Source of the DNA: Chitinivibrionales bacterium
GTDB lineage: Bacteria; Fibrobacterota; Chitinivibrionia; Chitinivibrionales; WJKA01
Reading direction: 5' to 3'
Assembly (NCBI GenBank): GCA_014728215.1
Contig: WJLZ01000200.1
Span: 1-64,000, forward strand
DNA: 64,000 nt
The number at the start of each line of letters is the position of its first letter. The first letter of the stretch is position 1. The notes beneath the pieces are model-generated. The model was given only the letters and a program-made list of their open reading frames with translations, had not been told where the DNA came from and did not search any database. Position numbers and translations under genes: made by a program. Below are positions 6,931 through 27,200 of this stretch, in pieces.

Positions 6931-8752
6931 AATTGTAGTAATAATCGCTTACGTTGTTTTCGATATCTGCGTTTTCTTTTACCTGCAGATACCAATCGTA
7001 ATAGAGTTTCTGATAATTACTCGCCAGGATCTGTCGGGCAATCGAATTGATCTGTGGACTGTCCCATGGAATAGATTCGACCTGATCATGGTGAAGCGGT
7101 TTGACAACAAAGAATGTACCGTTATCTTCAACTACCGAAGACCGGGTGCCTTTTTCGAGTGCAAATGCAGCGGCAACAACTTTATTATCCTTACCGACCC
7201 CTTGAATATATTCATTGCGTGATACCGTATCGGTAATGCCTGATGATACCAGAGAATCGATATCAGACAAGGAGGCAATACTGATGGAATCCGGTTTTTT
7301 CGCGATAAGATTTTCGAGATACTCCCGAGCTTTCTTTTCCTGTATCCGGCGCTTGAGCTTTGTGGAGATTTCATCACGAACCAGTTCAAGCGGCATACGT
7401 CCTGCAGGAATTTTGCGCGCAATTTTGACAATGTAAAAAGCGTCTTGGTTTTCGTAAGGAACTTCAGCAATTTCGCCCACAGTACCGTTAAACACGAAGT
7501 AGGTCATACCGGGAATGTATCCAATACCCGTTGCAACTTCACCTTTTTTAAACGGCCCGGCCGAATCGGCGCTTAACCCCGGATATTCTTCAAGGACTCC
7601 GGCAAAACCTTTTTTATCCATCTGGATTCTCAGGGTATCGGCGAGCTCCTGAAGGCTGTCGAGGGTTTCTGCCGAAGGCTGAATTTTCCTGAGTATGTGA
7701 CGAGCCCTGACTCGAGCGATACTGTCACCGTCCATCTCTCGTTCTTCAACCAGTAGAAGATGATAACCAAACTTTGTTTTTACCGGATCGGATATTTCAC
7801 CAGTGTCGAGTGAAAAAGCAACACTGTCGAATTCCTTTACCATCATACCCCTTTTAAACCAGCCAAGGTCGCCACCGTTTCGTGCCGAACCTTCATCATC
7901 GGATGCAATCCTGGCTTCCTCGGTAAATGTGGCTTCACCGCTTTCAATGCGGCTTTTTATTTCAAGTAATTCGTTATAGTACTCCCGTTCATCCTCTGCA
8001 GTTGTAGTTTTGGGCATTTTGACATAATCCACAACAGCCTGTTCTTTTTCAACAAATGAATCGGGATGAGCCTCATAGTAATCGAGAATCATATTATCGG
8101 TAATCTCGGAAGAATCGAACTTGAACGAAGAAGAACTGACTTTCGCGTATTCAAAAATGCCCTTTTCGTTTTTTAATTTATATTCCCGGGCAATCTCTGC
8201 CTTTGTAACCATGTTTCCGGCATTGATCATTGTTTGAAGCTTTTCCATGGGAACCATAAAATCTCTGACATGGGCTTCCAGAAACTGCATCCCCTGCTGG
8301 CCAACCTGCTGGGGATTATTAAGAAACGCTTCAAATTTTGTCGTATCGAATACACTATCGGTCATAAAATTGGGGTTATTGGCAATTCCCGGAGGAGGAT
8401 TATTGCGTATGTGTCTGTATATTTCCTCGGCAGAAGCCCCAACTTTCATCTCTTTGAATTTTTCAATGAGCAAATGACGACTTACCTTTGTTTCCCACAC
8501 CTGCTGAGGAATCATACGTGCCTGATAAGGCTGAAGTTCACCGCCAGCCATTTCACGCTGACGCTCACGTTCGATATTTACTTCCTTATCGAATGTTTCC
8601 CAGGTGATTTCTTTACCTTCAATCTTGCCGACAACATGCTTCCGGTCTTTACCGGAAATGTCCATTCCCCAGGAAAAGAAAATGGTGGCGACAAAACCAA
8701 TCAGTGCGATAAGAATTACCGTTGGTGCAATTTCTCGCATTTTCGAAATCAT
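6929..8752 (-). CDS. PpiD/SurA-like periplasmic peptidyl-prolyl isomerase
   Basis: The 607-residue protein has a short cytoplasmic start, one membrane helix (about residues 9-29, IAPTVILIALIGFVATIFF) and a large periplasmic part. A SurA-type N-terminal chaperone region (35-200) is followed by two parvulin (PPIC) domains, about 225-345 (with the typical ARNGGDLGWFKRG motif) and 350-455 (from RARHIL). This layout is that of PpiD, which assists proteins leaving the Sec channel; finding it in the same run as secA fits. GGAG lies 6 nt before ATG. It is the last gene of the run and has its own terminator. Call by architecture; strict orthology to ppiD is not proven. Confidence 0.85.
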   Translation of the reverse strand: MISKMREIAPTVILIALIGFVATIFFSWGMDISGKDRKHVVGKIEGKEITWETFDKEVNIERERQREMAGGELQPYQARMIPQQVWETKVSRHLLIEKFKEMKVGASAEEIYRHIRNNPPPGIANNPNFMTDSVFDTTKFEAFLNNPQQVGQQGMQFLEAHVRDFMVPMEKLQTMINAGNMVTKAEIAREYKLKNEKGIFEYAKVSSSSFKFDSSEITDNMILDYYEAHPDSFVEKEQAVVDYVKMPKTTTAEDEREYYNELLEIKSRIESGEATFTEEARIASDDEGSARNGGDLGWFKRGMMVKEFDSVAFSLDTGEISDPVKTKFGYHLLLVEEREMDGDSIARVRARHILRKIQPSAETLDSLQELADTLRIQMDKKGFAGVLEEYPGLSADSAGPFKKGEVATGIGYIPGMTYFVFNGTVGEIAEVPYENQDAFYIVKIARKIPAGRMPLELVRDEISTKLKRRIQEKKAREYLENLIAKKPDSISIASLSDIDSLVSSGITDTVSRNEYIQGVGKDNKVVAAAFALEKGTRSSVVEDNGTFFVVKPLHHDQVESIPWDSPQINSIARQILASNYQKLYYDWYLQVKENADIENNVSDYYYN

Positions 8753-10708: not shown

Positions 10709-11347
10709 CTAAGAGTTTATTTCGTTGATAAGCTGCTGAATTCTTTCGTACACTTTCCAGGACAACGTTTCAACAGATTCGTCTCCGGAAAAAATAATAC
10801 ACCGTTTTGGATTCTGCTCTGCCAGGGCCAGATAACCGTTTCTGATTCGCTCATGGAAATCTCTGGAATTTCCTTCAAGTCGATCCGGCGCTTTATTACT
10901 CTTTTTCAGTCTTTCAGCCGCTTCGTCAACCGTACAATCGAAAATAAAGGTTAAATCGGGCGCCCGATTTCGGGTGGAAAATTCGTTCAACTGCTGCAAT
11001 TGACTAATTGACAACCCTCTACCATATCCCTGATAGGCAAATGTAGCATCCTGAAATCGATCACAGAGAACGATTTTTCCGCTTTCCACCGCCGGTAATA
11101 TTTTTTCGAAAACATGCTGGGCCCGTGATGCAAGGTACAGAAGTAGTTCACATTCGGCGCCCATCTCGACATTATCATTTGACAATATAATCTCACGTAT
11201 TTTCTCACCGATCGGTGTACCGCCCGGCTCCCTTGTAACAAGACAGGGAATAGAATCTTTTTCCAGACGCTTTGCGGCTTCGCCCACCTGCGTGCTCTTA
11301 CCGCATCCATCAATACCTTCAAATGTTATAAAAAGACCCTTTCTCAT
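10709..11347 (-). CDS. tmk: Thymidylate kinase
   Basis: Tmk phosphorylates dTMP to dTDP. The 212-residue protein shows the P-loop FEGIDGCGKSTQ near the start, REPGGTPIGEKIR, the DRFQDATFAYQGYGR region that binds dTMP, and a C-terminal lid with charged residues. I placed the start at the ATG at 11347, which overlaps the secA stop by 4 nt (ATGA); an in-frame extension to 11362 would put extra residues before the usual beginning MRKGLFITFEG. Translation is thus coupled to secA. Confidence 0.95.
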   Translation of the reverse strand: MRKGLFITFEGIDGCGKSTQVGEAAKRLEKDSIPCLVTREPGGTPIGEKIREIILSNDNVEMGAECELLLYLASRAQHVFEKILPAVESGKIVLCDRFQDATFAYQGYGRGLSISQLQQLNEFSTRNRAPDLTFIFDCTVDEAAERLKKSNKAPDRLEGNSRDFHERIRNGYLALAEQNPKRCIIFSGDESVETLSWKVYERIQQLINEINS

Positions 11348-14300
11348 GCTTTGCCACAGCACTTCTTATATTTTTTCCCACTTCCGCAGGGACAGGGTTC
11401 GTTTCTCCCAACATGTTTTTCCACACGTACCGGAGCGGGTTTTCCGTCTCCTCCCGCTCTGTTGGTTATCAGCTGCGGCTGCCGGGCCTTTGCTCCCCCA
11501 GCCGCCTGTTCCGGTTGCCCTGCCTGTACATTAGAAAATACATCAAATTCAGCATGGACGGTACGGGAATGGTCCAACCCCATCCGGTCTTCTTCCTGTT
11601 TTACTGCCTCAAGGCGGAAAATGAAGGATGAAACCTCCCGTGAAATGGCGCTTCGTAACTCATCAAAGGCCTTCAATGCCTCACGCTGATATTCATACAG
11701 AGGATTCTTCTGACCGAATGCCCTGAACTGTACACCCTGCTTAAGATGGTCCATCTCATAAAGATGGTCTTTCCAGAGATTGTCAATGACCATAAGAAAG
11801 ACGCCCCGCTCAAACTGCCGCATCTGATCGGCTCCGAAACGGGATTCCTTTTCTTCGTACCGATCCTTGACCTCTTTCCAGATCTCATCAAACATATTTT
11901 CATGGGTAATACTCGAAAGCTTCTCATCGGGGACATGATAGGTTAGCCCGAAAGCCATCTGTAATTCTTCGTAGAGCGATTTCAAATCCCAATCTTCCGC
12001 ATACTTGCTCTTGGAAGAATACTTGTAGATTATCTCCTCGACATATGCAGCCAGTTGCTCGAGTATTTCTTCCTTAATATCTTCACCCTTCAGCATTCTC
12101 TGACGGAGGCCATAGATTTCCGTTCGCTGAAGGTTCATAACATCATCGTACTCTTTGAGGTGTTTTCGCTGATCGAAGTTTCTTCCCTCAACCCGTTTCT
12201 GTGCGCTGCTTATTGAACGGCTAACAAGCGGATGAGAAATAACTTCACCATCTTCAGCACCCAGCCTGTCCATAATCGATGCAATTCTGCCGGAACCGAA
12301 TATCCGCATCAGATCATCATCAAGAGAGAGGAAAAATTTTGACGATCCCGGGTCTCCCTGACGGCCGGCCCGGCCCCTCAACTGATTATCGATACGCCGG
12401 GCTTCGTGACGTTCGGTGCCGATTATGCACAAGCCCCCCATTTCAACGACCTTATCATGCTCCTCTTTGAGCTGCTCATAGAGCTTTTTATGTTTTTCCC
12501 GAATCTCGGTAATCGTCAAATCATCCGGATCAATACCCTCTTTAATGAGTTCATTGGCCGCCATAGCCTCGAAATTACCGCCTAAAACAATATCAGTTCC
12601 ACGACCAGCCATATTCGTAGCGATCATGACCGCATGCAAACGTCCAGCCTGAGCGACAATCGATGCCTCACGAGCATGCTGCTTGGCATTGAGAACCTCA
12701 TGTTTAATCCCTTCCCGGGCCATCATCTTGCTTAAATGTTCCGACTTTTCGATTGATGTTGTTCCCACAAGAATAGGATTACCTTTTTCATTAATCCTTT
12801 TGATCTCATCTAAAATTGCATTGTACTTTTCTTTTTGAGTTTTATAGATCTCATCGTCATGATCGACTCTTACCATGGGACGGTTTGTGGGAATCGAAAC
12901 CACATCGAGTTTATAAATCTCCTGGAATTCGGCAGCCTCTGTTGCAGCAGTTCCGGTCATTCCGGCGATTTTTTTATAAAGCTTGAAGTAGTTCTGAAAG
13001 GTGATTGTCGAGAGTGTCTGGTTCTCACCTGCAACCCGTACCCCTTCCTTGGCTTCTACTGCCTGGTGAAGCCCTTCACTCCATCGGCGACCGTGAAGTA
13101 TTCGTCCGGTAAACTCATCAACAATTAATATCTGACCTTCCTGTACCACATAGTCGACATCCTTTTCAAAGAGCGAGTATGCACGAATTAATTGAGAAAT
13201 ACAATGTATTCGTTCGGTACGCTCTGCATACTCACGATGTGCTTTGTCTCTGGCCTCGGCCTTAGCCTCAAAATCCAAGCTCTCATCATTATCGATCCTC
13301 CCAAGCTCTTCTGCAAGATCGGGTACGACAAAGAATTCGGGATTGGATTCACTTATTAATTGCCGTCCCTTCTCGGTCAGTTCGGCACTGTGTCCCGATT
13401 CATCGATGGCATAAAAAAGCTCTTCGTCGATCTCGTGAAGTTTCCGTTCTCTGAGATAATCGGTTTCCACCATTTTCATGATTTTTGCCACACCAGGCTC
13501 TTTGAGAAAAGTGGAGAGCGTTTTACTTCTTGGCGCCCCTTTCTGCGCAACAAGCAGCTTGAATCCTGCCTCATACTCCTTTTCGGGATCCTGAAGGAGT
13601 TTTTCAACATCGGATAGGACCTTTTTAATCAGCACATTCTGGGCACTAACAACTTTGGTAACCCTTGGTTTCAGCTCTTCATATTCTTTATTTGACCGGG
13701 TAACCGGTCCGGAAATAATAAGCGGCGTCCGTGCCTCATCGATGAGAATATTGTCGACCTCGTCGATAATGGCATAATTAAGCTCCCGCTGAACGCATCC
13801 TTCAGGTGATGACGCCATATTGTCTCGAAGATAATCAAAACCGAATTCGTTATTTGTTCCATAGGTAATATCGCAATTATATGCCTCCCGCCGTTCGGAG
13901 CTTCCCGGCTCGGTGGTATCGAGACATGCAACACTTAAGCCCATGAAATTGAATATCTTACCCATCCATTCACTATCGCGCTTTGCCAGATAATCATTAA
14001 CAGTTATGACATGAACGCCTTTACCCTCCAGGGCATTAAGATAAGCGGCAAGCGCAGCAACCTGAGTTTTTCCTTCACCGGTTTTCATCTCCGCTGCTTT
14101 CCCCTGATGCAACACAACTCCACCCATTATCTGGACATCAAAGTGGGCCATGAAAGGGATTTCCTGTTTTGTAACCGGATCGATAACCATCCGCCCTTCA
14201 CCAAGTACGCGGTGCGTCACCTCCCGAATCACAGCAAAGGCATCGGGCAAAATATCATCAAGGGTCTGGCCCTGCTTAAGTTTTGAGCGGAATTCATCAG

Positions 14301-14439
14301 TTTTATTTTGAAGATCCTGGTCGGTTAGTGCACGATAGGTATCGGCCAGACTGTTAACCCTGTCGAGAATCGGATTAAGCTTTCTTACATCCCGTTCCGA
14401 TTTTGAACCGAAAACTTTCCCCATTATTTTAAGTAACAT
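11344..14439 (-). CDS. secA: Preprotein translocase ATPase SecA
   Basis: SecA is the ATPase motor that pushes proteins through SecYEG. Seen in the 1031 residues: Walker A MKTGEGKT, the DEVDNILIDEARTPL motif, TGTA(A)TE before the second nucleotide domain, NMAGRGTDI, ERHEARRIDNQLRGRAGRQGD, and a C-terminal zinc-binding tail (NEPCPCGSGKKYKKCC) that docks SecB and lipids. It is longer than E. coli SecA (901) because of an inserted charged helical block between the first nucleotide domain motif and the DYVV segment, as known in Bacteroidetes-type SecA. It starts 2 nt after the FliL-like gene. Coupling with the neighbours on both sides suggests one transcript. Confidence 0.98.
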   Translation of the reverse strand: MLLKIMGKVFGSKSERDVRKLNPILDRVNSLADTYRALTDQDLQNKTDEFRSKLKQGQTLDDILPDAFAVIREVTHRVLGEGRMVIDPVTKQEIPFMAHFDVQIMGGVVLHQGKAAEMKTGEGKTQVAALAAYLNALEGKGVHVITVNDYLAKRDSEWMGKIFNFMGLSVACLDTTEPGSSERREAYNCDITYGTNNEFGFDYLRDNMASSPEGCVQRELNYAIIDEVDNILIDEARTPLIISGPVTRSNKEYEELKPRVTKVVSAQNVLIKKVLSDVEKLLQDPEKEYEAGFKLLVAQKGAPRSKTLSTFLKEPGVAKIMKMVETDYLRERKLHEIDEELFYAIDESGHSAELTEKGRQLISESNPEFFVVPDLAEELGRIDNDESLDFEAKAEARDKAHREYAERTERIHCISQLIRAYSLFEKDVDYVVQEGQILIVDEFTGRILHGRRWSEGLHQAVEAKEGVRVAGENQTLSTITFQNYFKLYKKIAGMTGTAATEAAEFQEIYKLDVVSIPTNRPMVRVDHDDEIYKTQKEKYNAILDEIKRINEKGNPILVGTTSIEKSEHLSKMMAREGIKHEVLNAKQHAREASIVAQAGRLHAVMIATNMAGRGTDIVLGGNFEAMAANELIKEGIDPDDLTITEIREKHKKLYEQLKEEHDKVVEMGGLCIIGTERHEARRIDNQLRGRAGRQGDPGSSKFFLSLDDDLMRIFGSGRIASIMDRLGAEDGEVISHPLVSRSISSAQKRVEGRNFDQRKHLKEYDDVMNLQRTEIYGLRQRMLKGEDIKEEILEQLAAYVEEIIYKYSSKSKYAEDWDLKSLYEELQMAFGLTYHVPDEKLSSITHENMFDEIWKEVKDRYEEKESRFGADQMRQFERGVFLMVIDNLWKDHLYEMDHLKQGVQFRAFGQKNPLYEYQREALKAFDELRSAISREVSSFIFRLEAVKQEEDRMGLDHSRTVHAEFDVFSNVQAGQPEQAAGGAKARQPQLITNRAGGDGKPAPVRVEKHVGRNEPCPCGSGKKYKKCCGKA

Positions 14440-15036: not shown

Positions 15037-15366
15037 TCATTGATTACTGTCTTCAATTATTGCACAGGAAACCGGAATGCCCCTTGAAAAACCTTCTACC
15101 AGCGTGTTCAGCTCTTTCTGTATTTCGGGGCTGGTATCGATAAATTGCAGCCCTGTCCGTGCACCATCTTTCCTGTCGATTGCATAAATCACCCGGGCCT
15201 TAAGCTGCAAATCATTTATTTTCACCGAAACCACAGCCCCCTTTTCAAGCTTTTTCTTATAAAGGCAGCACACACCGGTTTTACTTAAATCGAAAAAAGT
15301 AACCCTGTCCGGATCTACATTGAGAGATTCAATGCGTTCGCTTGATCGTTCTTTCATCGGAGGCAT
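15037..15366 (-). CDS. PilZ domain protein
   Basis: The 109-residue protein is a single PilZ domain. RSSER at residues 7-11 and DLSKTG at 26-31 correspond to the RxxxR and D-x-S-x-x-G motifs that grip cyclic di-GMP. It has no membrane segment. AGGAG precedes the ATG by 5 nt. It lies between the TonB-like gene (70 nt upstream) and the FliL-like gene (10 nt downstream), so it may regulate the envelope machine encoded by this block. Confidence 0.8.
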   Translation of the reverse strand: MPPMKERSSERIESLNVDPDRVTFFDLSKTGVCCLYKKKLEKGAVVSVKINDLQLKARVIYAIDRKDGARTGLQFIDTSPEIQKELNTLVEGFSRGIPVSCAIIEDSNQ

Positions 15367-15436
15367 TACAACTCCTATTGAATAATAATAAGAGGATTAA
15401 AGATACAATGTGACCCGACATCACGTCACCATTTTA

Positions 15437-16486
15437 TTAAGACATCCCGGTAAAGGCAAAGGGATATATTACTTCAATGGGTTCTGCAACGGAGCATGAT
15501 GAAAAGCTCCATCGTTTGACATACCGGATAATATTCTGGTCAAAACTGGTATTATTGGTCGAGGATTTTGCCACCGAAACATTGGTGACCCCCCCTGAGG
15601 GCAAAATTGTAAATTTCACTTTGAGTTGCCCCGAAAGGCTCGGGTCCCGTTTCAACCAGTTTTCGTAGACACGTTTAAGCCGTTTGCTTTCTCGATTAAC
15701 AATCTTCTGGATACAGGACTTGCTTGTTACAGTGGCTCCGGATTCTGCTTTTACCTCGGGTGGTGAAGAAGTCATCGCTACTTTTCCGGCTGAAGCAATC
15801 TGTGAACCCGAAGTTTTACCGATAGCATCTTTTTTGATACTTACTCCCGATGTCCGTTCACCTTTTCGTGAGGCCAACGCTGCCGGATCAACTTTTTTTG
15901 TAGCAAATGTACCTTTCGAGATATCAATATCGGATAAATCACCGATTCCTTCCGATGTTGCACCGAGAAGATCGGATACAGCGGCGCTGCCGGCATCGTT
16001 TTCATCGCCCGAGGACGTAATCGCTGCGAAAATACCAGTCGACTGAATCTCCTGTTGCACTTCTTCCCGACGGGCCTTTCGTTCTTCCCGAGTAGCCTCT
16101 TTTCGTTGCTGCCGCTCTACAAATGTCTCTTTTTCGCGGTCGATTGCCTCCTTTTTCTTCTCCTGAGGCTCGGCGACTTCCTGCTCGCTGATTTGTTCTT
16201 GAATTTCCTTTTCCTTGAGTTTTGGCTTGGGTTGATCGAGTACCAAACGGGCATAGCGTTCCTGTATCTGCAATATTTCCTCTTCTGTAACCTCCTCGGG
16301 CATATCACGGAGGGAAAGAAGAAGGGTAATGCTTATAAGGATAACCGCAGTGGAGACCAGAAATAACAGGAACCGCCCCTCCAGCCGGGCAAACAGATGG
16401 CGCTGCAATTCTTTGGGAAATTCAACAGGCTTTGCCGCCGCTGCCGAAGCTCCCGCGTAAAATATTCCTGTTTCTTTGATTTCCAT
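15437..16486 (-). CDS. TonB-like energy transducer
   Basis: The 349-residue protein has a cytoplasmic N-terminus (1-38), one membrane helix (39-58), a long Lys/Glu-rich coiled segment (75-150), a low-complexity Ser/Gly/Lys region, and a C-terminal domain (255-349) with the AgmX/TonB-type pattern: a helix with KRLKRVYENWLKRDP, strands LKVKFTILPSGGVTNVSV, and WSFSSCSV near the end. Two cysteines (in SKSCIQKI and SSCS) could form the disulfide found in AgmX/PglI-type domains. TonB and TolA proteins carry proton-motive energy from ExbBD/TolQR to the outer membrane. It starts directly after the ExbD stop (TAGATG), with AGGAAAG as ribosome binding site. Confidence 0.8.
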   Translation of the reverse strand: MEIKETGIFYAGASAAAAKPVEFPKELQRHLFARLEGRFLLFLVSTAVILISITLLLSLRDMPEEVTEEEILQIQERYARLVLDQPKPKLKEKEIQEQISEQEVAEPQEKKKEAIDREKETFVERQQRKEATREERKARREEVQQEIQSTGIFAAITSSGDENDAGSAAVSDLLGATSEGIGDLSDIDISKGTFATKKVDPAALASRKGERTSGVSIKKDAIGKTSGSQIASAGKVAMTSSPPEVKAESGATVTSKSCIQKIVNRESKRLKRVYENWLKRDPSLSGQLKVKFTILPSGGVTNVSVAKSSTNNTSFDQNIIRYVKRWSFSSCSVAEPIEVIYPFAFTGMS

Positions 16487-16990
16487 CTATTCTTTCCTGT
16501 ATACCACCAGATTCATGACAGGATATCCGGCCTGACCACAGGTATACATGACCCGGGTCAGCACATTATAGGGAATCTCAACATCTCCCTGGATGGTGAT
16601 TTCACCGGAAAACTCATCGCCGGTCGCCTCTGCCAAACGCTTTGCTTCTTCTGCAAACTTTATGAGTACATCATACAGCGGCTCAATCAGAAAATCCTTT
16701 TGTGCAAGCAGTTCTTCATACCCGGTTTCATCAACAGCCTGGACATCTTCAACCGCAATTGAATTTTCGGAAATTTTGATTGTTTGAGCCTGACGGGCGG
16801 TTCGTTCGATTGACGATGCCGGAAGGAGCAGGCCCTTTGCAGGGGTTACCAGCTGTCCCTGAGTTGAAAAACTTTTAAGAAGAAATACCAGGATAATGGT
16901 AAACATATCCATCATCGAAGTAATGTTCAGTTTTACCTGTGTATTGCTCCGTGATTTTCTTGCTTGTCGCGCCAGTCGGGCATTAGGCAT
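16487..16990 (-). CDS. ExbD/TolR-type stator subunit
   Basis: This 167-residue protein has one N-terminal membrane helix with the channel aspartate (D28 in NITSMMDMF) and a periplasmic domain ending in a region like EITIQGDVEIPYNVLTRVM, typical for ExbD/TolR. These subunits form the proton path with the ExbB/TolQ pentamer. Its start overlaps the stop of the upstream ExbB-ExbD fusion (TAATG). Since the fusion lacks the aspartate, this protein is the likely proton-binding partner of the pair. Confidence 0.88.
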   Translation of the reverse strand: MPNARLARQARKSRSNTQVKLNITSMMDMFTIILVFLLKSFSTQGQLVTPAKGLLLPASSIERTARQAQTIKISENSIAVEDVQAVDETGYEELLAQKDFLIEPLYDVLIKFAEEAKRLAEATGDEFSGEITIQGDVEIPYNVLTRVMYTCGQAGYPVMNLVVYRKE

Positions 16991-18297
16991 TACTGGATAA
17001 TACCTCCTGCAAGTGAAACAGTTGGAAACATGGTAACTTTTCCTTCAGGGTACGCAATCCCCCGTGCAGCATCCATAACCGAAACAACCGTCTGATATTT
17101 GATTTTGTCTTCGGCTACAATTTTTATATTTTCAAGATCATTGAACATCGGAGTATCAGAGAAATCATTCTTAGTGTACACAGTATAGAGCTGGAGCAAT
17201 GTTGCGTTCCTATTTACTTGAGGATGATAGGATTGGATTATTTCAAAAAGAGCCTTTTGTTTTATCTTTGCCAGTTCCCGGTTCAGGGTTTCAAAATCGT
17301 ATGAATCACGAAGGAGCGGGATATCCGGTTTTTTTCCACTGCCGGCGGCAACAGTGGAAGAGTCTTCTTCCTTGAAATAATGGAACAAATTAAAGCCTTT
17401 TTTTGTAACAACAACGCCGAGATCGAGCTTTACCTGCTTTTGGGGCTGATTACTGTCACCCTGTCCTCCACTACCGCCTTTTGCCGTTGCAGGAAGTTTG
17501 AGTTCGATCGCACCAATTTTCACAAACTCCGCGGAGGTTAAAAGCAATGGAATCAGGATGACCATAAGGTTCATCATCGGCGCAATATTCGGCTCGGTAT
17601 CGACATCTTCTTTAATCCGCTTAGATGAGATCTTGTAAGATTTCTGGACCTTTTGTGACGGAACCAGTGCCTTGAGAATGGAAACGGCAAACCGGTCTAT
17701 CTCTTTGGTTGCAAGATCGATTTTCGAACGTAATAAAGAATAGACCAGTATGCAGGGCACACTGATAAAAAGTCCCATCAATGTAGTATTCATAGCAGCG
17801 GATATGCCGGCAGCAAGAAGCGACGACTTTTCAACAGCAGAGACTTCAGGGCGTGCTACGGCGGCAAAGGAAAGGATAAGCCCGTAAATAGTTCCCATAA
17901 GTCCTAAAAGTGTCGATACATTGCCCAGCATCATAAGCAGATCCACCCGTTTTTCAAGAAGAGGGATCATATGAAGGCTCTCTTCTTCCATAGCGGTTCT
18001 GATCATTTCAGGGATTTCCTTTGCTTTCCGCACTCCTGCCCCGATAATTCTCGGCAACGCCCGCCGTCCTCCAGCATTACAGATCCGGTCGGCTTCATCA
18101 AGCTTATTTTCCTCAATTAACTTTTTTATCTTCCCGGTAAATGCTTCAGCATCCACATCCGTACGACGCCCGAGATCCCACCACCGGTCAATAACCAGAA
18201 TAAGGGCAAGCACAGCCACCGCCGCAAGTATCCACATGAAAATAAACCCGCTCTGTCCGGGCGAAAACGATGCAAGTATTTCGGCTAAAATATTCAT
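16990..18297 (-). CDS. ExbB/TolQ-ExbD/TolR fusion protein
   Basis: Residues 1-215 are a full MotA/TolQ/ExbB module: membrane helix 18-36, cytoplasmic segment, then two helices at about 122-147 (GNVSTLLGLMGTIYGLIL) and 165-190. A linker (215-235) leads to an ExbD-type part (236-435) with membrane helix 240-258 and a periplasmic domain with its final MFPTVSLAGGI. At the place of the conserved ExbD channel aspartate there is asparagine N243 (NIAPMMNLM, against NITSMMDMF in the next gene). The fused form fixes a 1:1 ratio within one chain, which differs from the usual 5:2. It is not a frameshift artefact: the linker is continuous. No strong ribosome binding site was seen. Confidence 0.88.
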   Translation of the reverse strand: MNILAEILASFSPGQSGFIFMWILAAVAVLALILVIDRWWDLGRRTDVDAEAFTGKIKKLIEENKLDEADRICNAGGRRALPRIIGAGVRKAKEIPEMIRTAMEEESLHMIPLLEKRVDLLMMLGNVSTLLGLMGTIYGLILSFAAVARPEVSAVEKSSLLAAGISAAMNTTLMGLFISVPCILVYSLLRSKIDLATKEIDRFAVSILKALVPSQKVQKSYKISSKRIKEDVDTEPNIAPMMNLMVILIPLLLTSAEFVKIGAIELKLPATAKGGSGGQGDSNQPQKQVKLDLGVVVTKKGFNLFHYFKEEDSSTVAAGSGKKPDIPLLRDSYDFETLNRELAKIKQKALFEIIQSYHPQVNRNATLLQLYTVYTKNDFSDTPMFNDLENIKIVAEDKIKYQTVVSVMDAARGIAYPEGKVTMFPTVSLAGGIIQ

Positions 18298-18330
18298 AAC
18301 GTAAGGAGTACCTATGCAATACCGACAGGA

Positions 18331-19098
18331 TTACGTATTGATTTCTTTGATCAGTTTATTATCAGTAAAAAGCTTTATATTATTATGTGTCACATGGACC
18401 CCGACTCCCTCTTTGAGTTGGGAAGCACTGATATGATATTTATGGGTTCTGTATGACTTTTCTACGAGTGCATTAACCAGTCGTAATGAGTGCTCGTCGA
18501 TTTCGTCGATAATTTTCTGGGTTTTTGATCGGAAAATTGCATAGAGAATGATTGCCGGGATGGCAACCATCAGACCGGTAAAGGTGGTATTCATGGCCGC
18601 GGCAATACCCGAGGCAAGAAGAGTTGATTTCTCAGCGGCGTCAATGCCTGGCTTTCCAACGGCGGCAAAAGAGAGAATCAGTCCGTAAATTGTTCCCATG
18701 AGCCCGAGCAGTGTAGCAACGTTTCCGACCGTAGCAAGATAATTTGTCCTCTTCTCAAGTTGAGGCACTACTTTCAGTATGGCTTCATCAACGCTGTTGC
18801 GGATTCGATCGGCCCCGCGATTCGCTTCATCAAGACCGGCCTTGACCACCGATGCCAGTGCCATCTTGCCGGCCTTTGCACACATACGCTGCGCAGCAGG
18901 TATATCATCTTTTTTAATATTGGTCAATATTTCTTTAACAAACAACTCCGCTTTGAAACCGGACCGGCTCATCAAATAAAAAAAGCGTTCCAGTACAATA
19001 GCGATACAGAAAATACCAACCACAAGCAAAATCCACATAAAGAGAAATCCGGGTTCGGAGGGATTGAATGAGTGGAAAAATTTTGCGAAGAAGTTCAT
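18331..19098 (-). CDS. MotA/TolQ/ExbB proton channel family protein
   Basis: This 255-residue protein has three membrane helices (about 18-37, 125-147, 165-188) and the family core GNVATLLGLMGTIYGLILSF. It is closely similar to the N-terminal half of the fusion encoded next (shared ATLLGLMGTIYGLILSFAAV and AAMNTT), so the two probably arose by duplication. TolQ/ExbB pentamers hold the ExbD/TolR dimer and couple proton flow to movement. AAGGAG precedes the ATG by 5 nt. Confidence 0.9.
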   Translation of the reverse strand: MNFFAKFFHSFNPSEPGFLFMWILLVVGIFCIAIVLERFFYLMSRSGFKAELFVKEILTNIKKDDIPAAQRMCAKAGKMALASVVKAGLDEANRGADRIRNSVDEAILKVVPQLEKRTNYLATVGNVATLLGLMGTIYGLILSFAAVGKPGIDAAEKSTLLASGIAAAMNTTFTGLMVAIPAIILYAIFRSKTQKIIDEIDEHSLRLVNALVEKSYRTHKYHISASQLKEGVGVHVTHNNIKLFTDNKLIKEINT

Positions 19099-19273
19099 AC
19101 GAGCTCCTTGGAAATAGTTTTCGGATAAGATACTGCTTCAACAGCTTTAATCCCCGCTCCTCCGTATGTAACAAACAGCAAAGGAACCGAAGAACAATGA
19201 TTAAAGATAAATGATTTACTTATACAATGCATAGGATAAGAAAATAATAAGCAGAGAGAGGTACTTTTTTTCT

Positions 19274-19603
19274 TTAGGGTACATAATTTTTGATTTCTTT
19301 ACCGGAAAATTCAAAAGCCTCCTCATAAGGAGAGTTTTCGATAACCGATTCATCGACCAGATCGGTAACATTAGTATTTTTTCCCAGGCTCTGGATTACC
19401 ATAGGAGCGAAATCCGGTCTTTGATCGGCCTTGATAAGCACCAGTTGAGGACGTCTGATTTTTCCTTCAATTCGCTGTTCTTCAAATATGAGCTGCTTTA
19501 CACTTTTATCTCCGGATGAAGCGGAAATAAAAGAGGAAATTCCGGCAAATACAATGAAAACTACAGCAGTTTTTAATCGTAACATCACTTTTCTGTTTTT
19601 CAT
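19274..19603 (-). CDS. Small exported protein of unknown function
   Basis: The 109-residue protein starts with a basic stretch and a hydrophobic core (about 11-30, LKTAVVFIVFAGISSFISAS), i.e. a signal peptide, leaving about 80 periplasmic residues. The mature part carries KIRRPQLVLIKADQRPDF and a charged end. I recognise no family. It is the first gene of the minus-strand run, 175 nt before the ExbB homologue, and may be a periplasmic partner of that complex. No good ribosome binding site precedes the first ATG; an in-frame ATG six codons later is an alternative. Confidence 0.65.
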   Translation of the reverse strand: MKNRKVMLRLKTAVVFIVFAGISSFISASSGDKSVKQLIFEEQRIEGKIRRPQLVLIKADQRPDFAPMVIQSLGKNTNVTDLVDESVIENSPYEEAFEFSGKEIKNYVP

Positions 19604-19959: not shown

Positions 19960-20556
19960 ATGGATAATGATCTGAAACGGGCGAGGGAGATTCTCGATGC
20001 TGAAGCTGCTGCAATTCGAAATATCCCCCTTGACTCCGATTTTGCAGAAGCTGTATCCGAGCTTCTCAGATGTCCGGGTAAAGTCATTACAACCGGTATG
20101 GGAAAAGCAGGAAAGATTGCCCAGAAAATGGCCGGGACCCTCTGTTCAACCGGTACTCCTGCATGTTATCTGCACCCTGGCGAAGCTGCTCACGGTGATC
20201 TGGGGGTTATGAGTGAAGGCGATGCGATCCTTGCCTACTCCACCAGTGGAAAAACACGCGAGGTTCTCGAAATGCTGGAGTTGGCACGCCACCTCGGCGT
20301 AACATCAATGATAGGTATTACTTCCCATCCAGACTCATCCATACGGGAATTATGTCCGGTTGTGCTGAATATGGGTGAAATCACCGAGCCATGCTCTTTA
20401 GGACTGACTCCTACGTCAAGTACAATTGTCATGCTTGCAATCAGTGATGCACTTGCGCTTGTGCTTATGGAACGGAAAAATATCACACAAAAAGAATTCG
20501 GTCTGCGACATCACGGAGGATATCTCGGAACAAAGGCAAAAAATGCATGTTCATGA
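19960..20556 (+). CDS. SIS-domain arabinose-5-phosphate isomerase, no CBS domains
   Basis: The 198-residue protein is a single sugar isomerase (SIS) domain of the KdsD/GutQ/KpsF type: TTGMGKAGKIAQKMAGTL at about 47-64, the LHPGEAAHGDLG motif with the conserved His, YSTSGKTREVLEML, and LTPTSSTIVML. The enzyme turns ribulose-5-phosphate into arabinose-5-phosphate, the first step towards Kdo of lipopolysaccharide. Typical KdsD has two C-terminal CBS domains (about 330 residues); this one lacks them, a form known from other bacteria. AGGAA lies 8-10 nt before ATG. It is followed 37 nt later by nadB. Confidence 0.85.
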   Translation: MDNDLKRAREILDAEAAAIRNIPLDSDFAEAVSELLRCPGKVITTGMGKAGKIAQKMAGTLCSTGTPACYLHPGEAAHGDLGVMSEGDAILAYSTSGKTREVLEMLELARHLGVTSMIGITSHPDSSIRELCPVVLNMGEITEPCSLGLTPTSSTIVMLAISDALALVLMERKNITQKEFGLRHHGGYLGTKAKNACS

Positions 20557-20593
20557 CATGTACACTTCAAAACATTAATGGTTATCAACATCA

Positions 20594-22213
20594 ATGAATA
20601 TTGAAAAAACAGATTTTCTGGTTATCGGCAGCGGGATTGCAGGGCTAAATTTTGCGATCCATGCATCACAGTATGGAAATGTCGTTATTATCACAAAAAA
20701 GAGCAATACCGATTCAAACAGCAATCGTGCACAGGGGGGTATTGCATGTGTGCTGGATCCCGACGATGATTTCAGCCGTCATATTGATGACACACTCGAA
20801 ACCGGTAAAGGTCTCAGTAATACGGATGCTGTCGAAATCCTTGTTAATGAAGGCCCCGAAAGGATAAAGGAACTGCTGAGCTGGGGGGTCCAATTTTCCC
20901 GTTCCACCGATTCGAAAGCCTATGCCAGTCTCGACCTTGGAAGGGAAGGCGGCCATACGGCAAATCGAATAGTTCATGCAAAAGATCTTACCGGCCAGGA
21001 GGTTGAAGCTACCTTATTGAATTTAGTGAACCGCCTGCCAAATGTCACACTATTTCAAAACCACTATGCCATCGAGCTGATTACCAATCACCACGTTAAA
21101 AACCCACCACAAAAAAACCGGTGCTACGGAGCATATATTCTCGATACCGAAAAAAACAGAATATTTTCTCTTCAAGCGAAAGTCACCTGCCTGGCAACTG
21201 GTGGCGTTGGAAAAACCTATCTCCATACGACAAATCCGGAGATCGCTACCGGCGATGGTATAGCCATGTCGTTCAGGGCAGGTGCGGAAATACGAAACAT
21301 GGAATTTATCCAGTTTCATCCGACAATGCTCTACCATAAAAACAGCGATTCCTTTCTTATCTCAGAAGCCGTACGGGGATTTGGTGCAGTGCTGAAAAAC
21401 CATGACGGTGAAAAGTTTATGGATTCATATCATCCAATGAAGTCTCTTGCCCCCCGGGATGCTGTAGCGCAGGCAATCGACAAGGAGATGAAAAAATCAG
21501 GAAAACCCTGCGTGTACCTGGATATCACGCATATTTCCGGTTCAAAAACAAAACAACGATTTCCGAACATATATTCCCGTTGCAAAGAGCTGGGCCTCGA
21601 TATTACCAAAGACCTTATACCGGTGGTCCCTGCCGCCCACTATCTGTGCGGTGGTATATGGGTCAACAGTAACAGTCATTCAAGTATCGACACCCTGTAT
21701 GCATGCGGAGAAAACTCATGCACCGGTGTTCATGGTGCAAACCGTCTGGCTTCAAATTCGCTTTTGGAAGCACTGGTTTTTTCTTATCGGGCAGTTCATG
21801 ATGCCCGTAACCGGCTCTCATCAATTCCCTTTATTGACGAACGCCGAATCCCCCCATGGGATGACAGCGGAACGGTGGAAACGGAAGAATGGATACTGCT
21901 TTCGCATAACCTTCACGAGATTCAGACTACGATGTGGGATTATGTCGGCATTGTCCGTTCAACGCTTCGTCTTCAACGTGCTTACCGAAGAATAAATTTG
22001 CTGCAGAAAGAAATAGAAGATTTCTATAAAAGAACCAGGATAACTCCTCCGGTTCTCGATCTCCGGAATGTTGTCACTGTGGCGAAGTTAATCGTGACAT
22101 CAGCTCTGCGCCGTCATGAGAGCCGGGGGCTTCATTTTACCACCGATTTCCCCGGTGTTAATAGTCGCTACTGGAAAAAAGATTCTGTTGTTCCCCTACA
22201 ATTGCGCGTATGA
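20594..22213 (+). CDS. nadB: L-aspartate oxidase NadB
   Basis: NadB oxidises L-aspartate to iminoaspartate, the first step of NAD synthesis, with FAD. Seen: FAD-binding VIGSGIAGLNFAIHA at residues 10-24, NRAQGGIAC, the REGGHTANRIVHAKDLTG segment, EFIQFHPT, and the GVHGANRLASNSLLEALVF signature near 385-400. 539 residues is normal. No nadA or nadC was found in the window. Its stop overlaps the start of the next gene (ATGA). Confidence 0.95.
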   Translation: MNIEKTDFLVIGSGIAGLNFAIHASQYGNVVIITKKSNTDSNSNRAQGGIACVLDPDDDFSRHIDDTLETGKGLSNTDAVEILVNEGPERIKELLSWGVQFSRSTDSKAYASLDLGREGGHTANRIVHAKDLTGQEVEATLLNLVNRLPNVTLFQNHYAIELITNHHVKNPPQKNRCYGAYILDTEKNRIFSLQAKVTCLATGGVGKTYLHTTNPEIATGDGIAMSFRAGAEIRNMEFIQFHPTMLYHKNSDSFLISEAVRGFGAVLKNHDGEKFMDSYHPMKSLAPRDAVAQAIDKEMKKSGKPCVYLDITHISGSKTKQRFPNIYSRCKELGLDITKDLIPVVPAAHYLCGGIWVNSNSHSSIDTLYACGENSCTGVHGANRLASNSLLEALVFSYRAVHDARNRLSSIPFIDERRIPPWDDSGTVETEEWILLSHNLHEIQTTMWDYVGIVRSTLRLQRAYRRINLLQKEIEDFYKRTRITPPVLDLRNVVTVAKLIVTSALRRHESRGLHFTTDFPGVNSRYWKKDSVVPLQLRV

Positions 22214-24180
22214 TACCGCTCTGGCTGACAGTTGCATTTTTTGTTGTTGTCTATCTATTGCTGATAATCGTTTATGTTTATCGCATGCCGAATAAGAAAT
22301 GGCTGCGATTTATTCTCATAGTCCTCAGGACAGCTATTCCGGTTTTTCTTCTCGTCGCCCTCTTTCAGCCATCCATTACTTTCAGGTACTTTGCGCAGAA
22401 AACTCCCTCAACAGCCCTTCTTATCGATAATTCTGCCAGCATGGCCCTTTTCAATCCGGACTCTGCGGTACGCCCTTTTATAAAGGCATTTTTCAGTAAA
22501 ACAAAAAGCAAGGGTACAAAGCTTTTTCCGGTTTATACATTTGGCGATACGCTGGAACTCTGTTTGGATATTTCGGAAGTATCCTTTACCGGGAATTCGA
22601 GCAATTTCCCTAATACATCTGTCAACCAGGATCTCCGCAATGCATCCACAATAATTATTGTTTCGGACGGCAACTGGACTAATGCCCAATTCGCCGGAAA
22701 TGCACTGGAAGAAAAAAATGTCTATTACTATCAACTTCCTCAAATCGCCCCCAAACCCTATATCCACATTGAAGCCCACCCGGATAAAAAGGATGTGCCT
22801 CGAGATTCACTTTCCCAGGCGCTGATACATATATATGGCTACAAAAGCCACTCATTGCCATTGAATCTCTCGATGAACGAGCGGTCAACGACATTGGCCG
22901 AAAGAAAGGTGGCGGCCGATTCCGGTTTCTTTCGGGATACGGTAAAACTGCCACTCCCAACATCGCACACCGGAAGGCACCTCTACACCATTTCAGCAAT
23001 CAACAATACCGATACCGTGCAATCATCATGCAGGCTCATCCAGACAGTTGTTCCCAGCCGGTTTTTTGCAGGCTTTTACAGCACCTCACCGAAACTCGAC
23101 AGGCGTTTTATTTCACTCGCCTGCACATGGCTGGAAGACTGGATGGCCACGGAAACTACCTCAAAATCATCGGTCCTTTTCATCTTTGACTGGAACATCG
23201 AGACCGAAAAAATCATAAAGGCACTACCAAAAAACAGTGTCGTTGTATTCATGGGTTGCTCACCGTTCGAAAAAAGCCGGGTTATCAGGCCGTCACGACT
23301 GACAGTGATTGCCCATTCCGATTTTTCTGACAATCCGCTACCATCTCTGCCCGAAAATATGCCCGCTCCATCGAGCCTGCGGTCTTTCGATATCGAAACT
23401 CTCCCTTGGAAATCAGTACGACTTAGTGTTGTTGCAGATTATTCCGTTTCCACGTCCTCCCATCAGGATACGCTTCCACTCCTTGTTGTCGGCAGATACA
23501 AGAAACGCACATCTTTTTTTCTGACTGCAGAGGGGATATGGCGATGGGATTTCCAGACACAGGCATTTGACCGGCCGGTGAGTAGCTTTCCCTTCTCTCA
23601 GTATCTCTTATCGCTTATCCGGGAACAGCTTCTTATCAATGCGGTTGATGAATTTTACCTCTTTCCCGATAAGGAAGAATTACACGAAAGGGATTCACTC
23701 TTTTTCCGCGCCGTGCTTCCCGCAGAATGCCTGCAATCTTCAAAGGTTCATGCCAGGCTTCTCATCGTTTCCAACCAAGACACGGTTCAGGATACCACCT
23801 TGTCATTCATTCCCCCTCTTTCCGGAACCATGCGGCTCAGTCTGGCACCTGTTCCCGCCGACTCCTATATCTACACGGCATATCTCACTGCACAGGGACA
23901 ACATTATTCTTTCCGGGATTCTCTGCATGTCACAGTCGACAATTCGGAACGGGAGGTACGGGAACAGAACACGCTTTTTCTCAAGCAGTGGGCTCAGCCC
24001 GTTTCACCGGAGGAATCAGAAGATTTTCTGGAGCAACTCGAGCAGAGTATGACAGAGAGGGAACGGGAAACCCAAACCGGGACCTTTCGCATCAATCAAA
24101 CTTGGCCCCTGTTGATTATCATTCTGCTCCTCTTCGGTACAGAATGGTTTATCAGGAAAAGGGCTAGATTGGATGACTAA
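22210..24180 (+). CDS. Membrane protein with von Willebrand A-like domain
   Basis: The 656-residue protein has two N-terminal membrane helices (about 5-24 and 32-52), a vWA-like domain starting at LLIDNSASM with the metal (MIDAS) residues D73, S75 and S77 and a later strand IIIVSDGNWTN, a large beta-rich periplasmic part, and a C-terminal helix (WPLLIIILLLFGTEWFI) with a basic tail. The form recalls BatA-like or related membrane vWA proteins, usually paired with MoxR ATPases; no MoxR gene is here. It is translationally coupled to nadB by a 4-nt overlap, although no functional link is evident. The function is not known. Confidence 0.75.
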   Translation: MIPLWLTVAFFVVVYLLLIIVYVYRMPNKKWLRFILIVLRTAIPVFLLVALFQPSITFRYFAQKTPSTALLIDNSASMALFNPDSAVRPFIKAFFSKTKSKGTKLFPVYTFGDTLELCLDISEVSFTGNSSNFPNTSVNQDLRNASTIIIVSDGNWTNAQFAGNALEEKNVYYYQLPQIAPKPYIHIEAHPDKKDVPRDSLSQALIHIYGYKSHSLPLNLSMNERSTTLAERKVAADSGFFRDTVKLPLPTSHTGRHLYTISAINNTDTVQSSCRLIQTVVPSRFFAGFYSTSPKLDRRFISLACTWLEDWMATETTSKSSVLFIFDWNIETEKIIKALPKNSVVVFMGCSPFEKSRVIRPSRLTVIAHSDFSDNPLPSLPENMPAPSSLRSFDIETLPWKSVRLSVVADYSVSTSSHQDTLPLLVVGRYKKRTSFFLTAEGIWRWDFQTQAFDRPVSSFPFSQYLLSLIREQLLINAVDEFYLFPDKEELHERDSLFFRAVLPAECLQSSKVHARLLIVSNQDTVQDTTLSFIPPLSGTMRLSLAPVPADSYIYTAYLTAQGQHYSFRDSLHVTVDNSEREVREQNTLFLKQWAQPVSPEESEDFLEQLEQSMTERERETQTGTFRINQTWPLLIIILLLFGTEWFIRKRARLDD

Positions 24181-24220: not shown

Positions 24221-27200
24221 TTATTTCCAGCCGATACTTGCTTCTTTGATTATAACCGGATTTTTAGGATCGAGAGATTTTGCCTTATTCAGATGTTTTG
24301 TGTACAGGGCTTTGTTCTTCTCTTTTTTGGCGACTTTCGCAAGCCCGAATTCCGAAAGTGCATGATCCGGTTTAACCCCCAGCGCTTTCTCGTAATATTT
24401 TTTCGCCCGGGTGAAATCATTTTTCTGAAGGTATACTTCAGCCCGTTCAAAGAGCGCGGGAAAATGCTTGTCGTTGATAAAGAGTATCGATTTGTAGGTT
24501 TCTATGGCCTCAACCAGCTTATTTTCGGCTCTCTGAACTGTAGCAAGCAACATCAAGCCCTCGATATTTCCCGGTTCGGAGTTCCTGATCTCCTCGATAT
24601 ATTTTGCCGCATCGCTGTAGCGTTTCCGTTCGATAAGATCCTTTGCATACTGAGCACGGTATTTGTTATCGTTGGTCAGCTCGATGAGCCCCAGCATTTC
24701 ACCGCCGGCTTTCTCCTGTTTACCGGCCTGCTTATACAGTTTATAGAGTTCCATGCGAATTTCGATATCCTTTGTTTTGATGGCCTTCGCCTTTTCGAGA
24801 AGGTCAATCGCCTGAGTGGGCCGATTCGTTTTCATATACCCCTCGGCAAGAAGAAGAATTGTCTCGACATCTTTAGGTGCCATGGCATGAACAGTTTCGA
24901 GGTTTGCCAGGGCCTGAGTTGTCTGGTTCTTCTTCAGGAGTATGGCACCCACTCGCTTATTCGCCTCGACATTCTGCGGATCGAGTGTAAGCAGCTTTTT
25001 GAATGCAGAAAGCTCCTTGCCTTCATTTTTCAGTTCTCCATACACCTGCCCAAGGGTGAACCATACCTCTGCAATCGTATCTACCAGACTCGTTGTACGG
25101 GAGAGCATGGATGCCGCTTTTGAAAGAGATTTCTTATCCTCGGCCAGTATCATTCCGAGACGCAAAAAGTTCCTGTGATCTTTCGGATATTTTGACGTAT
25201 TGACCTGATACAGTTTCACTGCGCCCGCCTTATCGGATGCTTCCCTGAGATAAGCCATTTTATAAGCAGCATCACTGTCAACCACCCCAGGCAGTTTCGT
25301 ATACGCCTCATAGGTTTTCGCGGCATCAACAGGTTTATTAATTTTCTCATAGCATACGGCAAGCGGCTTGAGCATCCGCTTCAATTCGGAAGCCGAAGGC
25401 TTTTTTGCTCTTGCCTTGGCAAATGCTTCGGCAGCCTCCTTATACTGTTTGGTAGTATAATACGATTCACCCAGAACTATGAGGTACCGTGCGTCCTGTA
25501 ACGCTGCATCCTGAACTTTCTCCAGATAGGTGATAGCGCTTTTGAACTCTTTCTTTTGGTGTTCGTACAGCCCGATCTTTTTGGCAGCCTTCTGATCTTT
25601 CGGGGCCTTTACAAAGTATTTCTTGTAGGTTTCAATAGCAGCCCCTTGCTTACCGATTTTTTCCTGCAATTCGGCAAGCTCCTTGAACTCATTAACCGCC
25701 TTTGGATTAAGCATAACCACCTGTTCATAGGTGATAATTGCATTACTATTGTCGCCGATCTTTGCCTGACTTTCGGCAAGAGATGTAAGCACTTTGACGT
25801 TTTTAGTATCAGTCTTCAGAGCTTCCTGATACATTCCAATTGCGCTTTGGTACTTTTTCTGCTTCTTATAAATATCACCCAGTGCAATGTACATCGGCGC
25901 ATCCGCCTCTTTAGCCTTGATAGCACCGGTGATAACCGTCACTGCCTCGTCATCCAGTTTCTTTTTCAAAACAATATCGGCATATTTTTTATAAAAGCCT
26001 TTTATTGAAGAATCGTATTTAAGTGCCGAACGGTAGGCAGACAAAGCCTCGTCGAACTCTTTCAGCTCATAGAGCAGATTACCAAGACTTTTGTGGGCCT
26101 GAGCATTCTTTGGACCAAGTTCGATATACTTTTTAAGATGACCTACCGCAGCTTTCTTTTTGTTTTGTTTTGAAGAGATGTCATAGAGTTTTTTGAAGAC
26201 TTCTTTGCTCTTCGGCGTTAACACCGCAAGATCTTCATAGAGCGGATATGCGGTGTTGAAATTCTTTTTCTCCATGGAGTACTCGGCAAGCCGGACTCTG
26301 GATTCGATATTCTTTTTATCTTTGGAAACGATTTCCTTATCCAATTTTGCCAATTCAGCCCGTTCTTTTTCGACCATCTGCGTTTGATTCGTCTTATTCA
26401 AGGCATCGATAAGCGATAACCTGATCGCCACATCCTTTGGCAGCAACTTCTTAGTTTTTTGTAAAACATTGGCAGCTTCTTTTGGACGTTTTGTTTTCAT
26501 GTAAGCGTCCGCAAGCAGCAGCATCGTCTCGGAATCCTTTGGCGACATGGTCAAAACCATCTCGAGGTTGGTAATCGCTTTGCTGACCTGCCCTTTTTCA
26601 ATCAGAATAGCTCCTACACGCTTATTTGCCCGGAGATGCTGTGGTTCTTTTTCCAGGAGTTTGGAATAGGCTGAAAGCTCGGTATCAGTCATTTTCAGCT
26701 TACCGCTCACCTCGCCGAGTTTTTCCCACACAATCGCGGTATCGATAAGTGCTGAGGCTTTCTTGAGCGCGGTTTGCGCCTGGGGCAATTTCTCATTATC
26801 TTGAGAATATATCAGCCCCAGCTGGAGAAAATTTCGATAATCCTTTGGGAATTGCATCGTATTAGCTTTATAAGCTTCAATCGCTTTGGCCTTATCCGAT
26901 TTTTCTGTTAGCGATGCCATTTTATATGAAACATCAGCATTACTTATCCCGGGAATTTTGGCATAAGCTTCATAGGCCCGTGCCGCTTTGGCATCCTGAT
27001 CCAATATTTCATAACACTCACCAAGGGGCATGAGTATCTTTTTTAATTCATCGGCGGTTGGCTTGGCCTGCCAGGCCTGAACAAAAACATCGACCGCCTT
27101 TTTATGATCCTTTGTCTGGTAATACGACTCACCAAGAGCAATAAGATAGTCCTTGGTCTTTAAATTAACATCCGTGACCATCTCGAAAAAGGATATGGCA

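Follow-up and report, generated by a model that had tools for sequence, protein, structure and literature searches.

The stretch of DNA analyzed here (the window: 64,000 nucleotides, positions 1 to 64,000 of contig WJLZ01000200.1, assembly GCA_014728215.1) belongs to a 5.0 Mb, 96% complete Chitinivibrionales (Fibrobacterota) genome (G000, contig C200) and carries a block of seven minus-strand open reading frames. In the order of transcription, these encode a small exported protein, an ExbB-type ring protein, an ExbB-ExbD' fusion, a separate ExbD, a TonB-like transducer, a PilZ protein, and a FliL-like protein. The best explanation overall, which we consider probable, is that the core genes and the PilZ gene encode a proton motor of the ExbBD/TolQR/AglRQS class, in which the shaft would pair an Asp-bearing with an Asn-bearing helix (D/N) and the activity would be gated by cyclic di-GMP (c-di-GMP). 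The core comprises the small exported protein, ExbB, the fusion (ExbB*-ExbD', where ExbB* is a diverged ExbB duplicate), ExbD, and the transducer, described below as a GltG-like arm. Domain families were assigned with Pfam, with the addition of NCBIfam for the TonB-like protein and the ring protein and of PADLOC for defence proteins.

Two Unlike ExbD Subunits

In the alignment of 20 fusions, the residue at the position of the proton-carrying Asp is Asn in 18 sequences and Gly in two, and is never Asp, whereas the separate ExbD of the block has Asp in all 18 sequences aligned. In the paralogous clusters of Fibrobacterota, ExbD' has Asn in 19 of the 23 sequences read and Cys, Gly, Ser, and Ala in one each (two more are unreadable), while the adjacent ExbD has Asp in 25 of 25. 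In a second phylum, the KSB1 lineage, the counts, which cover only the loci readable by the pattern finder, are Asn in 28/28 for ExbD' and Asp in 31/31 for ExbD. The ordinary ExbD and TolR proteins of the window's genome retain the Asp. Because related clusters can have Cys, Gly, Ser, or Ala at the ExbD' position, the rule is "not acidic" instead of "Asn". The genes with these four residues (L073:6382-7173, L118:2272-3162, L120:1132-1932, and L129:1124-2080) lie mostly in PopA-linked clusters. The first-pass annotation of this DNA had correctly recognized ExbB, the fusion, and ExbD, but had overlooked this asymmetry, which is the most interesting feature of the block.

According to a 2026 review (PMC12905483), the Asp is absolutely required in ExbD and TolR, and in the stepping model two Asp residues exchange protonation at every 36-degree step. 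AglQ and AglS are both reported to carry the Asp, and whether they form heterodimers is reported as unknown (PMC9389320); the D28N substitution in aglQ is reported to abolish proton conductance (PMC3858216). A conserved Asn in one subunit, together with an Asp that is required elsewhere, is hard to fit with symmetric homodimers and suggests a D/N pair, and the alignments thus make a one-acid shaft likely in this motor family. It should be mentioned that an ExbD lacking the transmembrane Asp may have been reported earlier, the literature covered here being open-licence text.

Duplication and Fusion of the Ring Protein

The fusion is a single unbroken 435-residue frame, and its occurrence in 20 genomes rules out an artefact of assembly or frameshift. 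The diverged ExbB duplicate occupies approximately residues 1-215 and the ExbD-like part residues 225-435. The topologies of ExbB and ExbD place both of the joined ends in the cytoplasm, so that such a fusion is feasible. In the AlphaFold2 model, the ring half matches the E. coli TolQ, with TMt values of 0.70-0.75 in the best rows.

In a tree of 47 ring proteins, the block ExbB and the ring halves of the fusions form sister clades (98/92), which group together with the unfused ExbB of the KSB1 lineage (98/92). On this topology, duplication of the ring gene, followed by the joining of one of the copies to ExbD', took place a single time, in Fibrobacterota, before the sampled families split. The Zorya defence system was also considered and was rejected, as the PADLOC search gave only weak, superfamily-level ZorA matches of the ring protein and no other Zorya match among the seven proteins.

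Conservation of the Block and the Wider Family

The search covered 61 genomes, namely the window's own and 60 relatives, and 20 of them encode the fusion, either in full or cut by a contig end (E < 1e-100). The gene order is identical in these 20 genomes, with secA downstream wherever the contig reaches; within the taxonomic order, tmk and ctpA also follow secA, across several families. On the upstream side, most of the genomes have the SIS, nadB-like, and vWA-like genes in common. Two further families of the phylum, outside the order (L068 and L069), have the block as well, including the PilZ and FliL-like genes, again with secA downstream. In L068, the outgroup, a gene for a 1952-residue TPR protein lies immediately upstream of the small gene, and the end of the TPR protein is common to L069. 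The arrangement, which recurs with secA-tmk-ctpA across families and with secA in two further ones, is far beyond chance expectation. The genes are thus not scattered in relatives, as the first-pass annotation had allowed that they might be. A plasmid search with ExbD as the query gave no match.

One broken block was observed (L079, G019:C62, around 7453-7490). There, the ExbB frame is cut short at about 181 codons and is followed by the sequence directly preceding PilZ; the fusion, ExbD, and the TonB-like gene are gone, while PilZ and the FliL-like gene are still there. This can be either a true deletion or a misassembly.

The KSB1-lineage loci are unfused and contain a TPR protein, the small protein, a single ExbB, ExbD', ExbD, and a GltG-like protein. 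Of the 59 genomes drawn from that phylum, 54 contain some match to ExbD', and in about four fifths the match is strong (E of 2e-37 or better). The window's genome itself has at least three related clusters, of which L071 adjoins a TPR protein and polysaccharide-export-like genes (the latter assigned by eye), L072 a gene with TonB-receptor-like matches, and L073 a PopA-type porin.

In L071 and several of the loci L110-L128, a cluster of the small protein, ExbB, ExbD' (with Asn), ExbD, and the GltG-like protein is followed by polysaccharide-export-like genes, an arrangement that recalls Agl-Nfs/Exo in Myxococcus. Seven of the polysaccharide-linked loci (L111, L113, L114, L124, L125, L127, and L128) have a gene of about 107-125 codons between ExbD' and ExbD, the product of which has, by eye only, the look of a STAS/anti-sigma-antagonist protein.

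The Arm, the Small Exported Protein, and PilZ

The TonB-like protein consists of one transmembrane helix, a periplasmic linker, and a C-terminal domain. It scores 74.9 bits against the AgmX/PglI C-terminal model NF033768 (cut-off 40) and 85 bits against the GltG equivalog model (cut-off 650), and we describe it as GltG-like, not as a proven GltG. The small protein appears to carry a signal peptide and matches no family. A motif of the kind IxGxIxKPxV is, however, common to the small proteins encoded upstream of ExbB in the block, in the paralogue clusters, and in the KSB1-lineage loci, which marks the small protein as a standing component of the whole motor family.

The PilZ protein retains the RxxxR and (D/N)xSxxG signatures in every orthologue scored. 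Among the genomes inspected, PilZ is found in 14 of 16 with the motor and in none of 16 without it, counts that are uncorrected for shared ancestry. Two motor-bearing genomes (G026 and G028) lack it, and PilZ is therefore a usual but not an obligatory module. Because PilZ accompanies the core and has its c-di-GMP-binding signature intact, control by c-di-GMP through this protein is plausible, and the earlier suggestion of a c-di-GMP-responsive PilZ in the block appears reasonable.

Proposed Mechanism and Alternatives

By homology, the motor would have a ring of five ExbB-type subunits around two ExbD-type helices. The latter are most likely unlike, such that Asp28 of ExbD would carry the protons while Asn243 of ExbD' could not do so in the usual way. 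As the fusion ties ExbD' covalently to one ring subunit, the simplest complex would contain four copies of ExbB and a single copy each of the fusion and ExbD. Protons passing the one acidic site would set ring and shaft in motion against each other. The GltG-like arm would exert a pull or push on a partner in the outer membrane, with the small exported protein as a possible intermediary. Gating of the machine by PilZ in response to c-di-GMP is probable. Such a natural 5:2 motor, with one acidic site per shaft and a non-acidic helix tethered to the ring, and with a family in at least two phyla, is a proposal that we make tentatively. If it is true, the alternating two-aspartate step proposed for ExbBD, TolQR, and MotAB cannot apply.

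A number of points weigh against this picture. The heterodimer and the stoichiometry are deduced from tandem and fused genes, and D/D homodimers of ExbD are conceivable, in which case the fusion would act elsewhere. The AlphaFold2 model of the fusion is of moderate confidence, with a mean predicted local distance difference test score (pLDDT) of 72 and low values near the ExbD' helix. None of the 17 block sequences has a His in the transmembrane helix of the arm, as TonB, TolA, and some related clusters do, and the SxxxH motif of Ton arms is accordingly absent from them; the coupling of arm and ring may thus differ from that in TonB and TolA. The R-to-D spacing in PilZ is short (12-16 residues), and the block has no linked gene for a partner in the outer membrane.

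We have considered an alternative in which the block is an ordinary Ton-type energizer that serves at least one unlinked TonB-dependent receptor, and the additional subunits are neutral variation. ExbB, ExbD, and a TonB-like C-terminal domain are all present, and one related cluster (L072) does lie beside the TonB-receptor-like gene. However, the block contains no receptor, the arm is of the AgmX/PglI type without the transmembrane His, and two other related clusters have neighbours of a different kind (TPR and polysaccharide-export-like genes at L071, the PopA-type porin at L073). The Asp/Asn asymmetry, like the fusion, is moreover conserved and not drifting, and we regard this alternative as unlikely.

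Alternatively, the fusion could serve as a decoy, either regulatory or structural. The active motor would then be ExbB5-ExbD2 with two Asp residues, while ExbB*-ExbD' would form a non-conducting complex of its own or act as a brake. The lack of an acidic residue in ExbD' would suit such a role, as would the fact that the two halves of the fusion form a self-contained protein. In the KSB1 lineage, however, an unfused ExbD' with Asn is encoded between a single ExbB and ExbD, and ExbD' presumably uses the same ring there. No genome was found with an otherwise intact core that lacks ExbD'. The decoy role is on these grounds improbable.

The FliL-like Neighbour

The confidently modelled domain of the FliL-like protein (pLDDT ~95) matches the H. 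pylori FliL (7sgn) with a TMt of 0.85 and a root-mean-square deviation of 1.5, and the protein has the single transmembrane helix and the periplasmic SPFH-like domain of FliL. The FliL fold that had been proposed from the letters is thereby confirmed. The conserved adjacency and the true FliL fold could suggest that the c-di-GMP-responsive ExbBD motor includes a FliL-like ring as an integral partner, just as MotAB is partnered by FliL. In addition, among flagellated genomes the FliL-like gene is somewhat commoner with the motor (13/14) than without it (9/16), a difference that shared ancestry may explain.

The pattern of gain and loss of the gene differs, however, from that of the motor. Nine motorless genomes keep the FliL-like gene directly upstream of secA, while two motor-bearing genomes lack it. 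One of these, G030, is flagellated; the other, G010, has the motor and PilZ, yet its genome gives no match at all to FliG, FlhA-type proteins, or FliL, and its congener G004 has both flagellar genes and the FliL-like gene. Among the genomes inspected, 23 of 31 flagellated ones carry the gene and none of 6 non-flagellated ones does, and the KSB1-lineage clusters have no FliL-like gene. The FliL-like gene is thus inherited independently of the motor, its product probably does not belong to it, and a flagellar or Sec-linked function is the more likely one. The first-pass assignment of FliL as a motor component is not supported, and an integral partnership of the two is, in our view, very unlikely.

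Relation to Known Systems

The core of the Agl-Glt/Nfs Group B systems, described for Myxococcus xanthus with homologues in Fibrobacteres and others, consists of AglR, AglQ, AglS, and GltG (Luciano et al. 2011, PMC3169522). The block shares with it the ExbB-type ring and the two tandem ExbD-type proteins, its arm resembles GltG, and the related clusters have TPR neighbours (cf. GltC/GltE) and, in one case, polysaccharide-export-like genes (cf. Nfs/Exo). The block differs in that its ExbD' is always without the Asp that both AglQ and AglS are reported to have (PMC9389320), in the duplication of the ring gene and its fusion to ExbD', and in the added PilZ. No homologue of GltC, D, or E is found among the block genes or their near neighbours, the adjacency of a TPR protein being limited to the outgroup L068 and to the KSB1-lineage and paralogue clusters. 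The first-pass annotation had described the gene set as different from that of Agl-Glt; this needs to be revised, as the arm is of the AgmX/PglI type and GltG-like and the small protein is common to the whole family.

The Ton system (ExbB-ExbD-TonB) is likewise built of ring, shaft, and arm, the arm with a TonB-like C-terminal domain, but the block has two unlike ExbD proteins, no linked receptor, and an arm without the transmembrane His. The TonB-dependent receptors found elsewhere in the genome have their own ExbB (L077 and L074). With the flagellar stator MotAB-FliL, the block shares the MotA/ExbB family and a FliL-fold neighbour; however, Pfam finds no MotB-type peptidoglycan-binding domain in the block proteins, and the FliL-like gene is inherited independently. 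A flagellar MotA-MotB-FliL set, in which MotB has an OmpA-like peptidoglycan-binding domain, is located at L076.

That the block is the Tol-Pal inner-membrane module of the organism is refuted and hardly credible, since TolB and Pal are not in the locus and a TolQ-TolR-TolA-TolB-Pal-type set with its own TolQR lies on another contig (L078), although the ring half has a TolQ-like fold and TolQ is the best equivalog-type match of the ring protein, far below the cut-off. With both the Tol-Pal and the MotAB-FliL sets located elsewhere, the earlier proposal of a proton-driven ExbBD-type machine that is neither flagellar nor Tol-Pal is supported.

Tandem exbD1-exbD2 genes are known in Xanthomonas campestris and Flavobacterium psychrophilum, where exbD2 serves a function other than iron uptake (PMC3551730). 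These systems resemble the block in having two exbD genes per cluster, but no ExbB fusion has been described for them.

Gene Layout and Surroundings

All seven genes of the block are present and span 19603 down to 14442 of the window (Table 1). The list of open reading frames and the Pfam matches, which support every named domain, bear out the genes and family assignments of the first-pass annotation. Its span of 15037-19603, however, is correct for six of the genes and leaves the FliL-like gene outside. The stop codon of the fusion overlaps the start of ExbD by one base, the ExbD gene directly abuts the TonB-like gene, and 2 bases separate the FliL-like stop from the start of secA. Downstream of the FliL-like gene follow look-alikes of secA, tmk, and the carboxy-terminal protease gene ctpA, named from their sequences.

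Table 1. Positions in the window of the block genes, two shaft codons, and the adjoining secA
Feature	Position	Strand	Evidence or remark
Small exported protein, 109 aa	19274..19603	-	motif (I)EGKIRRPQLVLIKADQRPDF; orthologues aligned
ExbB/TolQ-like ring protein, 255 aa	18331..19098	-	PF01618 96.6 bits; tree
ExbB*-ExbD' fusion, 435 aa	16990..18297	-	PF01618 82.7 bits, residues 82-200; PF02472 39.9 bits, residues 233-414
Codon of fusion Asn243 (PMMNLMV)	17569..17571	-	position of the proton-carrying Asp in ExbD/TolR/MotB
Separate ExbD, 167 aa, acidic residue kept	16487..16990	-	PF02472 49.4 bits
Codon of ExbD Asp28 (TSMMDMF)	16907..16909	-	sequence; block ExbD alignment
TonB-like transducer, AgmX/PglI type (GltG-like), 349 aa	15437..16486	-	NF033768 74.9 bits; PF03544 (TonB_C) 35.9 bits
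PilZ protein, 109 aa, R7xxxR11 and D26LSKTG31	15037..15366	-	PF07238 33.1 bits
FliL-like protein, 194 aa	14442..15026	-	PF03748 25.3 bits, cut-off 24.6; H. pylori FliL structural match
secA, downstream neighbour outside the motor	11344..14439	-	conserved synteny

A SIS-domain gene, a nadB-like gene, and a gene for a 656-residue membrane protein with a vWA-like look, for which Pfam gave no match, are divergent from the block (19960-24180, plus strand), and many relatives keep these three genes upstream of it. Further away (24221-28696, minus strand) lies a gene for a 1491-residue exported TPR protein, the halves of which resemble each other. It was considered as the partner TPR protein of the motor and was rejected, as it falls outside the conserved neighbourhood of the block in relatives. 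A scan for consensus promoters gave no excess over the shuffled expectation, and the terminator-like sites (13, with 5.8 expected) are mostly intragenic; neither was used as evidence.

Implications

The block represents a real, conserved system, which is a variant within the ExbBD/AglRQS kind and new as such. A non-acidic shaft subunit, fused to the ring in one lineage, bears on both the two-Asp stepping model and the question of how AglQ and AglS pair. The family constitutes a natural experiment on which subunits sit together and on whether one proton site suffices, and its lopsided motor is a natural design that could be used to probe how this class of motors works. The PilZ link, if true, would mean direct control of a non-flagellar envelope motor by c-di-GMP.

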